Below are positions 17,291-21,361 of a DNA stretch of 64,000 nt, piece by piece; positions within the stretch are counted from its first letter, which is position 1, and each line of letters starts with the position of its first letter. The position numbers and the translations under genes are program-made. Below the pieces are notes generated by a model, which ran no database searches, was not told where the DNA came from, and saw only the letters and a list, made by a program, of their open reading frames with translations. Source of the stretch: Owenia fusiformis. Lineage: Eukaryota; Annelida; Polychaeta; Sabellida; Oweniidae. The stretch is from assembly GCA_903813345.2 (NCBI GenBank), contig CAIIXF020000006.1, forward strand, positions 23,259,936-23,323,935, given 5' to 3'.

Positions 17291-20016
17291 CTATCGCTTT
17301 CTGCGCATTTGGAGCATGTTCTGGCGCTTCCAGTTGGCACGACGGGATCCACCAGTTGTTTTGTTGTATCCATGTCCTTTGCCAAGACCCCTGGACTTCT
17401 TGCTTGCAGAGGTGAGACCGCGAAGTTCACGATGTTTCATCACTGGCTTGGTAATCCATTGGGTGTCTGGGTCACGACGGATAGCCTTGTGGAATGGGTC
17501 GACCATAATGACTTCAAAGAACTTGTAGCTGGAGTCTTCAGACACCCAGTAAGAGTTGAGTACACGGAGACCACCACATCGACGTCCAACTCTCTCCTGA
17601 AAATTGAATTATCTTTTAAATAGGGCCCTAATCACCTAAGAGCCTTGACAGATTAGGGATCAATACTACTGATCCCAAGTATTTGAAATGATCCTTGATT
17701 TACACAGGCCTTAGGCCAACCTAATATTTTAGAAAAGCACATTGTACATCAGAAAAGATAAATAACCATGGTTTTGTCATTTGTCCCTATCTAAGAAGTC
17801 ATCATTTGTACAATAATTTTAACATTGCTTATTTTCTGCAACATTAACATGACTCCAAAATGATATATGAGCCTTTCACACACTAATTTCTGCTCTAACA
17901 AAAAAATGGAATTTTTAACTAGTGACATGTAACAAATATATTTACCTCAGCTGTGCTCTGTAGGGAACGCTGATATTTGAGACTGTTAACACCCTGGTTG
18001 GTGGGTTTGCCATAGGTGGCACCCTTAGGTACAGGCCTTTTGCGACCACCACGGCGTACACGTACACGGTAGATCACAAATCCTGGAACATACAAAGGTT
18101 TTGTTAAACAGAGAAAAATGTGAAGATAAATTCTAAGTGACACTATATAAAACTAGTCAAACCCCTGATCCTCGCCTCCTCAATTCTCTCTCTAACATAG
18201 GGTCATGAAAAATGAGATGCAACTGTAGACTTGATGTAAGTTTTCACTGCTTTAGGAAAAGGGTTTTCTTGTTGCATCATAATTTTTGTCTGTTTCTAAA
18301 TTTCCATATCCCGCCAAGAACATTTAATGGAATTAAATAACAAATAGAAACTGTGTACTTAGTGGTCATCATATGTACATCAGAAAAGATAAATAACCAT
18401 GGTTTTGTCATTTGTCCCTATCTAAGAAGTCATCATTTGTACATAGATAAGAGAATGTGTCACTCAGAACTTTCACTATTATATATCCGAATATTGAGCA
18501 CAATTAGAGAATATTCTGTTTTTAAATTGTGGACACAGACAGATCTTTGCTGAAATGAGCAACAAACAGACCAAAATGCAATTAGTAAATACAATCATTT
18601 CAGGGACCAAACTTTTGAATACCTTTTTCAGGTTATACATTCAGTATAAAAGGTGTGACATAGCCGTGACTGCTTGTAATTTTAGGAGTTTCACAGGCAC
18701 ACAGCTCGCTCAATCAAAAATATGCAAAGTTTTGGTCTCATGTATTTGCATAGTTTTTGCTTTTTTGATTTTTCAGTTTATACTTGCACTGCAGTCCATT
18801 TAGCACAAGTAACCTTGTCTTAATCAAGGTAGCTCGATGACTTTCCTAAGTTTTGGTCTCATGTATTTGCATATTTTTTGCTTTTTTGCTTTTTCAGTTT
18901 ATACTTGCACTGCAGTCCATTTAGCACAAGTAACCTTGTCTAAATCAAGGTAGCTCGTAGTCCAACAACATTAGACCTAGCCCGGGCCTCGTTTCTTATC
19001 TGACATGTGTTATGGCCCGGCTAGGTCTAACCTCCATGACCATTTTGCCTTTGATGCGTTAATTTAATCGTTCAGCAGGTTTCGACAAGCAGAACAAATT
19101 AAACCCTGAAAACATGGCAATATTACACAAAGAATGTGATTCAAACATGCATACATACCTTATAAACACATACACCCCGTCCCGCATCCCCCTTAGACCC
19201 TATTGATGCATAATTACGAAAATATTGGAGACAGGTTTGGAAATGACGAAAATGTCGGTCAGTTTCGGTAACATCGAAATTGCAAATCGTTTCAGGAATT
19301 AACCGTCATCACGGCACTGCATTAACGAACAGTTGGTTTGCAATTAATAACTATTTTGCGTGTATACACGCGCTATATAAATTAATCAAAGATACCTGTT
19401 ATCCTCAAAATTGATCTTTTTATCCCGAGTAATCGCGATAATAATTATCAATCTATTTGACAACAATTTTGTTTCGCTGGTAGTTTAATTTTACGATCCG
19501 GGACACTCAGACGAACAGACACAATGACGGACATGCGGAATGTCACTTTAGAGATTGGTAAGTGTAGCCTCATTTTACTCGTATAAATGAACATTTAACA
19601 CAAAAATATTGTGTTAAATCGCTTGATGTTATGTGTTTTTATATTATTGTCAAGTATCAGTTGCACGTTATCGCGGAAAAATGGTTTCGATGGATTCAGA
19701 ACTTGCATCAAAGGAAAGAATAGTAAGGAGGTTTAACTCAATAATGGCCCCAAGAAAATTCCTAATAATAAAGAACGCCGTTATTGAGTTTAACGTTGAC
19801 TTTCCTAAATCTATTCTTCCTTATGAGGTGAAAAACGTTATTACCTTGTTTGGCTCTGTAGCCCATTCTCCTGGCCTTGTCGGGACGAGTTGGCCTTGGT
19901 GCTCTGTGGATTGAGGACAATTGACGGTATTGCCAGCAACGAATACGAAGCAAGAATCGCATGACATCACTCTGTTTCTTACGCCACAGTTCCTGGATGT
20001 ATTTGTAGGCTCCCAT
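17291..20016 (-). CDS. RPL15: Large-subunit ribosomal protein eL15 (RPL15)
   Basis: Three coding exons on the minus strand: 20016-19845, 18082-17946 and 17596-17291. Phases fit and the product is 204 residues, the family's normal length. It starts [19 protein letters not shown]; other family landmarks are [67 protein letters not shown] and SRGLGKGH. eL15 is a structural protein of the 60S subunit. The first coding exon begins at 20035 with 19 nt of 5' UTR after an ATTACAG acceptor; a non-coding first exon with a terminal oligopyrimidine start is at 21612-21581. Introns hold two snoRNA candidates, an inserted 838 bp mobile segment and tandem palindromes. Codon use is GC-richer than the surroundings, as expected for a highly expressed gene. 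Confidence 0.96.
17742..17813 (-). ncRNA. Candidate C/D-box snoRNA, copy 1 (RPL15 intron 3)
   Basis: Read on the minus strand (host orientation), 72 nt: a terminal stem TTGTACA/TGTACAA encloses a C box AUGAUGA and a D box CUGA. An internal element TTAGATAGGGACA is complementary over 12 nt to UGUCCCUAUCUA, a conserved stretch of 28S rRNA just before CUAUCxAGCGAAACC (rRNA recalled from memory). AUGA follows 2 nt after the complementary part and could be a degenerate D' box. It lies in the intron between coding exons 2 and 3, about 145 nt from the 3' splice site. The core is identical to copy 2. Confidence 0.72.
18372..18445 (-). ncRNA. Candidate C/D-box snoRNA, copy 2 (RPL15 intron 2)
   Basis: Same core as copy 1 (C box, 28S-complementary element, D box), with terminal stem TATGTACA/TGTACATA. 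Compared with copy 1 the second outer base pair has changed from T-A to A-T on both sides, a compensatory change that supports the stem. It lies in the intron between the first two coding exons of RPL15, in host orientation, 290 nt from the acceptor. Flanks outside the stem are unrelated to those of copy 1, so only the snoRNA was copied or kept. Confidence 0.72.
18729..18957. repeat. 121 bp tandem duplication in RPL15 intron 2
   Basis: GTTTTGGTCTCATGTATTTG through AAGGTAGCTCG occurs twice in a row (18729-18849, 18850-18957). The unit contains an inverted AACCTTGTC/CAAGG hairpin. The second unit is cut by the inserted segment that starts at 18958; the missing tail (TGACTTTCCTAA) reappears at 19797. 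Confidence 0.75.
18958..19795 (+). repeat. 838 bp duplicated segment, copy 2, inserted in RPL15 intron 2
   Basis: Nearly identical to 12262-13104, ending 49 bp from the donor of the first RPL15 coding exon. Possible gene-start on the plus strand: ATG at 19524, exon to 19557 ([11 protein letters not shown]), donor GTAAGTG, acceptor before 19655, then an open frame [20 protein letters not shown] and on to [14 protein letters not shown] at the segment's end. The frame is intact in this copy. I do not recognise the protein. The surrounding 121 bp repeat shows the segment was inserted cleanly without an obvious target duplication. Confidence 0.8.
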
Positions 20017-20129: not shown

Positions 20130-21361
20130 CGTGTATATTTCCTTGCTTTTTTTAGGAAAGTATCATTACATTGTCTACTTTTAGTAAACCTGGAAACAGG
20201 TTGGCTTCTGTATTGTCTGGAAACTTTGGAAGAAAATTTGGAAAAATAGAAAGTGTGAAATATCAGAATTTCCCATTGAACTCCTACCAGATATTCTAAA
20301 AGAAGACAATGTAATGATACTTTCTTGAAAAAAGCAAGCAATTTTTTACCAAAATGTTATTTTCCAGCTGCTACCTTATAACCAAATTTACTTTTCAAAG
20401 TTTCCACCAGACAACACACATTGACCGGTTTCCTGAAAAAGCAAGGAAATACACACATGCCTTCATACTAAATTTTGTACCAGAAAATAACATGTGCAAC
20501 TATAGCAATTTTTTTTACCAAAATGTTAGTTTCCAGCTGAGCCTTAAGGTACAGCTGGAAAGTAACATTTTGGTAAAAAATTGCTATACCTGCACATGTT
20601 ATTGTCTGGTACAAAATAAAGTATGAAGGCATGTATCAATTTCCTTGCTTTTTTCAGGAAAGTATCATTACATTGTCTTCTTTTAGAATATCTGGTAGGC
20701 GTTCAAAGGGAACTCAAGGGAATTCTGATATTTCACACTTCCTGTTTTTCCAAATTTTCTTTCTAAGTTTTCAGACAACACAGGAGCTACCATTGACCTG
20801 TTTCCAGGTTTACTAAAAGTAGACAGTGTAATGATTCTTTCCTGAAAAAAGCAAGGAAATACACACATGCCTTCATACTAAATTTTGTACCAGAAAATAA
20901 CATGTGCAGGTATAGCAATTTTTTACCAAAATGTTACTTTCCAGCTGAACCTTAAGGTACAGCTGGAAAGTAACATTTTGGTAAAAAATTGCTATACCTG
21001 CACATGTTATTTTCTGGTACGAAATAAAGTATGAAGGCATGTATCAATTTCCTTGCTTTTTTCAGGAAAGTATCATTACATTGTCTTCTTTTAGAATATC
21101 TGGTAGGCGTTCAAAGGGAACTCAAGGGAATTCTGATATTTCACACTTCCTGTTTTTCCAAATTTTCTTTCTAAGTTTTCAGACAACACAGGAGCTACCA
21201 TTGACCTGTTTCCAGGTTTACTAAAAGTAGACAGTGTAATGATACTTTCCTGAAAAAAGCAAGGAAATACACACATGCCTTCATACTTAATTTTGTACCA
21301 GAAAATAACATGTGCAGGTATAGCAATTTTTTACCAAAATGTTACTTTCCAGCTGAACCTT
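20130..21361. repeat. Tandem array of 408 bp palindromic units in RPL15 intron 1
   Basis: Two near-identical 408 bp units (20546-20953, 20954-21361) follow a diverged partial one. Each unit is itself a hairpin: a roughly 150 bp arm (GTACAGCTGGAAAGTAACAT ... TTTCCTTGCTTTTTTCAGG ... ACATTGTCTTCTTTTAG), a 100 bp centre, then the arm reversed. Open frames in it are artefacts of the symmetry. Confidence 0.85.

Follow-up and report, generated by a model that had tools for sequence, protein, structure and literature searches.

The closest described counterparts of the snoRNA discussed here belong to Rfam clan CL00069, in which U74/SNORD74 (RF00284), snR64 (RF00509) and plant snoR44 (RF00357) have the same predicted target cytosine in the large-subunit rRNA as the sequences that we analyze. 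The clan also includes the Drosophila family snoMe28S-Cm2645 (RF00530). SnoRNAs duplicate within genes and move from one host to another, and the arrangement described below is in that respect ordinary biology of an ancient class of RNAs. The tables of PMC3511168 and PMC2780460 enter snR64 and human U74 as equivalents, PMC2780460 groups snR64, snoR44 and U74 with the guide at the D' box, and the table of PMC3511168 places the target among the ancient C/D targets. According to PMC2806949, snR64 is tied to C2337 of 25S rRNA; the table of PMC3511168 numbers its target Cm2235. PMC6856654 gives GATTCCCACTGTCCCTACC as the primer used to assay human C3820 and reports that methylation of C3820 is about 34% lower in a U74-mutant human clone.

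We analyzed a 64-kb stretch of genomic DNA from Owenia fusiformis (the window) that carries two copies of a predicted guide RNA of this kind in the introns of the ribosomal protein gene RPL15. The sequences resemble clan CL00069 in the position of the guide upstream of D', as in the Neurospora equivalent, and in being intron-encoded, human U74 being hosted by GAS5 (both points as given in PMC3511168, PMC2780460 and PMC10743478). They differ from U74, snR64 and snoR44 in their hosts, which are RPL15 and a PRRC2-type gene instead of GAS5, in their number (at least seven copies in the genome), in the sequence of the D' box, which is AUGA, and in that no Rfam score exceeds the cut-off.

The host gene was recognized from three minus-strand exons that match Ribosomal_L15e (PF00827) in a Pfam profile search, namely the first coding exon at 19845..20016 (E = 7.5e-24), the middle coding exon at 17946..18082 (E = 8.3e-14) and the last coding exon at 17294..17596 (E = 4.4e-41), which is followed by the stop codon and also matches eL15 of solved ribosomes; splice sites and exon limits are a by-eye reading of the sequence. 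Copy 1 occupies positions 17742..17813 (72 nt, or 74 nt at 17741-17814 when the eighth stem pair is included) in the intron 17945-17597 between coding exons 2 and 3, and copy 2 occupies 18373..18444 (74 nt at 18372-18445) in the intron 19844-18083 between coding exons 1 and 2. Both are on the minus strand, in the sense of the host. Their 70-nt cores do not differ at a single position, while the 150-nt flanks of the two copies are only 29% and 27% identical, which is the background level expected of unrelated sequences. The preliminary description had proposed just such an intragenic duplication, with identical cores in host-sense intronic positions on either side of the middle exon, and this holds up, the positions agreeing with the 17742-18445 given there.

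Other repetitive sequences occur in the same region. The intron with copy 2 also contains two direct copies of a ~110-nt repeat (AGTTTTGGTCTCATGTATTTGCAT...) at about 18725-18958 of the window. At 20159-20321 and 20887-21021 of the window there are an inverted repeat upstream of RPL15 and a second stretch that gives sub-threshold Rfam matches on both strands; their appearance is that of palindromic mobile elements and not of microRNAs.

Judged by their boxes, stem and guide, the RPL15 segments are box C/D snoRNAs. In copy 1 the C box AUGAUGA is at 17799..17805, the guide UAGAUAGGGACA at 17782..17793, the variant D' box AUGA at 17777..17780, a degenerate C'-like element AUGGUUA at 17763..17769 and the D box CUGA at 17749..17752, all on the minus strand. 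The same elements of copy 2, likewise on the minus strand, are found at 18430..18436 (C box), 18413..18424 (guide), 18408..18411 (D'), 18394..18400 (C'-like) and 18380..18383 (D box). The C box is near the 5' end and the D box near the 3' end, and both copies are closed by an 8-bp terminal stem, so that the boxes and closing stem claimed earlier are all present. The internal boxes depart from the usual form, D' being AUGA instead of CUGA and the C'-like element, a tentative assignment in both copies, being AUGGUUA; both are invariant in all seven genomic copies found. A strict scan of the 64-kb window, requiring RTGATGA, a CTGA that begins 45-99 nt further downstream and 6 or more stem pairs, returned exactly two matches, which are copies 1 and 2, and no match in any of 30 controls shuffled within 200-base blocks. 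Folding z-scores for three of the copies are -2.0, -2.3 and -1.6, and part of the guide is paired internally in the predicted fold.

The terminal stem had also been noted for a compensatory change at one pair. The exchange itself, T-A in copy 1 against A-T in copy 2, is real, but it is not confined to one pair, since the next pair outward is swapped as well (A-T against T-A). Over the seven copies, 92.9% of the cells of the stem are standard-paired and two of the eight pairs are changed on both sides. In shuffle controls the covariation score was reached in 17 of 500 cases, the percentage paired in 19 of 500 and the number of doubly changed pairs in 238 of 500, and a helix slid by +2 columns has the same number of doubly changed pairs and a score of 0.244, compared to 0.202 for the actual helix. 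This result for the slid helix comes from the palindrome TGTACA within the stem. For the same reason, and because there are only seven related rows, the covariation lends weak support; the compensatory change in the stem is real and by itself poor evidence.

The guide is predicted to lead to a specific nucleotide of the 28S rRNA. The 12-nt guide, which all seven copies keep and which corresponds to the 28S target UGUCCCUAUCUA, has its partner TGTCCCTATCTA in a genomic 28S fragment at C10:25643658, and all 12 pairs are Watson-Crick. Counted upstream from the AUGA D' box, the pairing starts at position 2, and the fifth nucleotide upstream of D', a G (17785 in copy 1), lies opposite the first C of UGUCCC. 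Both the pairing and the cytosine selected by the fifth-nucleotide rule had been put forward in the preliminary description, and both are borne out by this geometry. Its mention of yeast snR64 and 25S Cm2337 is borne out by PMC2806949 (for the link of snR64 to C2337) and by PMC3511168 and PMC2780460 (for the equivalence with U74). The predicted target is the equivalent of human 28S C3820 (the U74 site) and yeast 25S C2337 (the snR64 site).

How exceptional the pairing is depends on the pairing rule. Among 300 shuffled guides, 2 reach 12 Watson-Crick pairs somewhere in this 15.5 kb locus; if G-U pairs are counted as well, the number rises to 124 of 300, by which measure the match is not exceptional. 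Occurrence of the bare 12-mer was rejected as evidence, the 12-mer being found 34 times genome-wide and its reversed control also 34 times; 7 of these occurrences are the snoRNA copies, 1 is the 28S fragment and 26 are others. The target was read from that single 28S fragment, the sole intact copy of the stretch found in the genome. Three further 28S-like matches are partial and 75-95% identical, with the target stretch absent or badly degraded, and a working rDNA was not found in the searched assembly, which may lack some stretches and yielded only the one intact target stretch and the three partial 28S loci. The fragment starts with TAGCCAAATGCC, the R2 insertion site motif, and reverse-transcriptase frames (RVT_1 match) are located upstream of it at C10:25.639-25.644 Mb, which together suggest that the fragment is probably R2-flanked. 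Those frames are an R2-like non-LTR retrotransposon.

We are highly confident that the two segments in RPL15 are genes for intronic box C/D snoRNAs, which are predicted to direct methylation of 28S rRNA at the first C of UGUCCC. We infer transcription, RNP assembly and methylation along the following lines. The snoRNA would be freed from the spliced RPL15 intron, fibrillarin, NOP56, NOP58 and SNU13, the usual C/D proteins, would bind it via the C/D kink-turn closed by the terminal stem, the guide upstream of the variant D' box would pair with the 28S target, and the first C of UGUCCC, corresponding to the human C3820 and yeast C2337 site, would receive a 2'-O-methyl group.

A different function could be sought on the D-box side, where the RNA might have another or an additional target; or the RNA might be an orphan snoRNA acting on the pre-mRNA of its own host. 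The stretch ACCATGGTTATTTATCT is invariant in 7/7 copies, and the D-side sequence has 12-nt matches in the C10 locus if wobble pairs are counted (from position 1 next to the box, in both versions tested). Against this, the D-side spacer is short, since no more than some 10 nt remain beyond the C'-like element, and is variable near the box: alignment column 62 differs among the seven copies, U being the letter specific to RPL15. It follows that there is probably no second guide. Moreover, shuffled sequences equal the D-side matches in 210 and 187 of 300 cases with G-U pairs allowed and in 64 and 280 of 300 cases with Watson-Crick pairs only. A second guide at the D box, whose matches in the 15.5 kb C10 locus do not surpass those of shuffled guides, was rejected, and we consider such a target or an action on the host pre-mRNA very unlikely.

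We compared the RPL15 copies with the Rfam families. A search of the window gave no family at its gathering score. In a relaxed search two families outside clan CL00069, SNORD82 (RF00158) and snoZ17 (RF00266), scored 28.9 bits, slightly more than RF00530; they align over the full length with the terminal stem and the boxes and are below their cut-offs of 43 and 44. The letters of the guide differ in these two families, so the resemblance is mainly one of stem and boxes. The best family of clan CL00069 is RF00530, which at 25.1 bits also stays below its gathering threshold of 48. Among the three families with alignments that we compared, it is the only one with a letter-identical guide: the 13-nt guide UUAGAUAGGGACA is the same as in the model consensus, and AUUUAUCUU is aligned in the 3' half. 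The D' box of the RF00530 model is CUGA, unlike the AUGA found here, and the 3' half is shorter in our sequences. Apparently little is shared beyond the guide, the boxes and the stem, which would explain why Rfam misses the copies at the curated score. In view of scores under the Rfam thresholds, we describe the RNA as a box C/D snoRNA whose predicted action is that of U74, snR64 and snoMe28S-Cm2645, without assigning it to any of these families. Searching the genome with RF00530 produced 16 weak matches, all of them short of the cut-off, including one of the five copies in the PRRC2-type gene and neither of the two in the window; weak matches also appeared in 9 of the 14 genomes that served as controls, all nine of them prokaryotes. 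Because of these omissions and control matches, the RF00530 search is not a census of copies.

The copies were counted instead by searching the 498 Mb genome with the 72-mer, which gave seven matches, a number to be read as at least seven because DNA-search counts in this genome are lower bounds. Two matches are the RPL15 copies and five are located at C6:28.383-28.397 Mb, 5 Mb from RPL15 on the same chromosome and 93-97% identical to the 72-mer. All seven are on the strand of their host; the two RPL15 copies are intronic by the exon limits, and a reading of the open frames suggests that the other five are intronic too. Of five frames scanned at the second locus, one matches BAT2_N (E = 1.2e-23) on the same strand as the copies, and the other four matched no Pfam family, which points to a PRRC2/BAT2-type protein gene whose remaining exons we place from open frames. 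The mean pairwise identity of the seven copies is 94.5% in the core and about 27% in the flanks, the similarity ending at the terminal stem. The guide, the D' box and the D box do not vary among them, and six have a perfect RTGATGA C box. Presumably the seven copies arose by duplication within genes combined with movement between genes.

The PRRC2-type gene (C6:28382000-28398500) contains further candidates. Two SNORD35-like matches score 36.9 and 36.4, just over the curated 36, three SNORD110-like matches are below theirs (41.9, 36.6 and 32.7 compared to 64), and there are weaker sub-threshold C/D matches as well. With the SNORD35-like and SNORD110-like matches the gene looks like a multi-snoRNA host, with what seem to be about ten C/D snoRNAs in all: five copies of the present one, two SNORD35-like and three SNORD110-like.

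The distribution of the copies bears on whether the boxes could be chance features of a transposon-like or other intronic repeat. A separate and abundant genomic repeat, which contains TGATGATGCCTAGGGACA, does fit a loose C/D pattern, and the counts of DNA searches in this genome are lower bounds. Nevertheless, the 72-mer has seven matches in 498 Mb, all on the sense strand of two genes, the similarity stops at the terminal stem, and GATAGGGACA is absent from the places with the loose pattern among the matches listed, which are part of 247. A transposon was rejected because all seven matches to the 72-mer are confined to two genes, and we regard a repeat of any kind as hardly credible. The preliminary description had named a wide occurrence outside RPL15 of copies that lack the boxes as evidence against a snoRNA. 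Such an occurrence was not seen in the 72-mer search: five of the seven matches do lie outside RPL15, and all seven have the guide and the D box. The loose pattern itself is uninformative, its 247 genome-wide matches belonging mostly, among those listed, to one repeat family. This is the abundant repeat TGATGATGCCTAGGGACA...CAAGATGGCGGCTGA (for example, C1:73007-73066), which mimics the boxes.

A redundancy of seven copies raises the question of whether the guide comes from the PRRC2-hosted copies, with either or both of those in RPL15 being silent pseudogenes. In vertebrates the distance from a snoRNA to the next exon is typically smaller than the 145 nt and 290 nt that separate copies 1 and 2 from theirs, and these distances would suit such a loss of function. 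Both RPL15 copies, however, have intact boxes, guide and 8-bp stem, with outer bases that are swapped yet still paired, and the sole damaged C box (AGGATGA) belongs to a PRRC2 copy. We therefore judge silent copies in RPL15 to be very unlikely and continue to regard both as snoRNA genes.

A literature search, with most subscription journals outside its coverage, found no report of this guide from introns of RPL15 or PRRC2 among the titles and abstract openings listed, and no paper that joins U74, snoRNA and RPL15. PMC3511168 argues that snoRNAs keep moving from one host intron to another, and PMC3412847 describes duplication of snoRNAs into neighbouring introns in sponge ribosomal-protein genes; the finding in RPL15 and the PRRC2-type gene fits both papers. 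It is conceivable, if unlikely, that copying between the two hosts is still in progress, with homogenisation of the cores while the introns diverge. If true, ongoing copying would couple the dosage of a single rRNA mark to a pair of growth genes; alternatively, the RPL15 copies could influence the splicing of RPL15. The RPL15 and PRRC2 copies add no new principle. They represent a deeply conserved rRNA-methylation guide that is present in several copies and in hosts other than the human one, which is useful for the annotation of animal snoRNAs and illustrates how a single snoRNA can be housed by two protein-coding genes.
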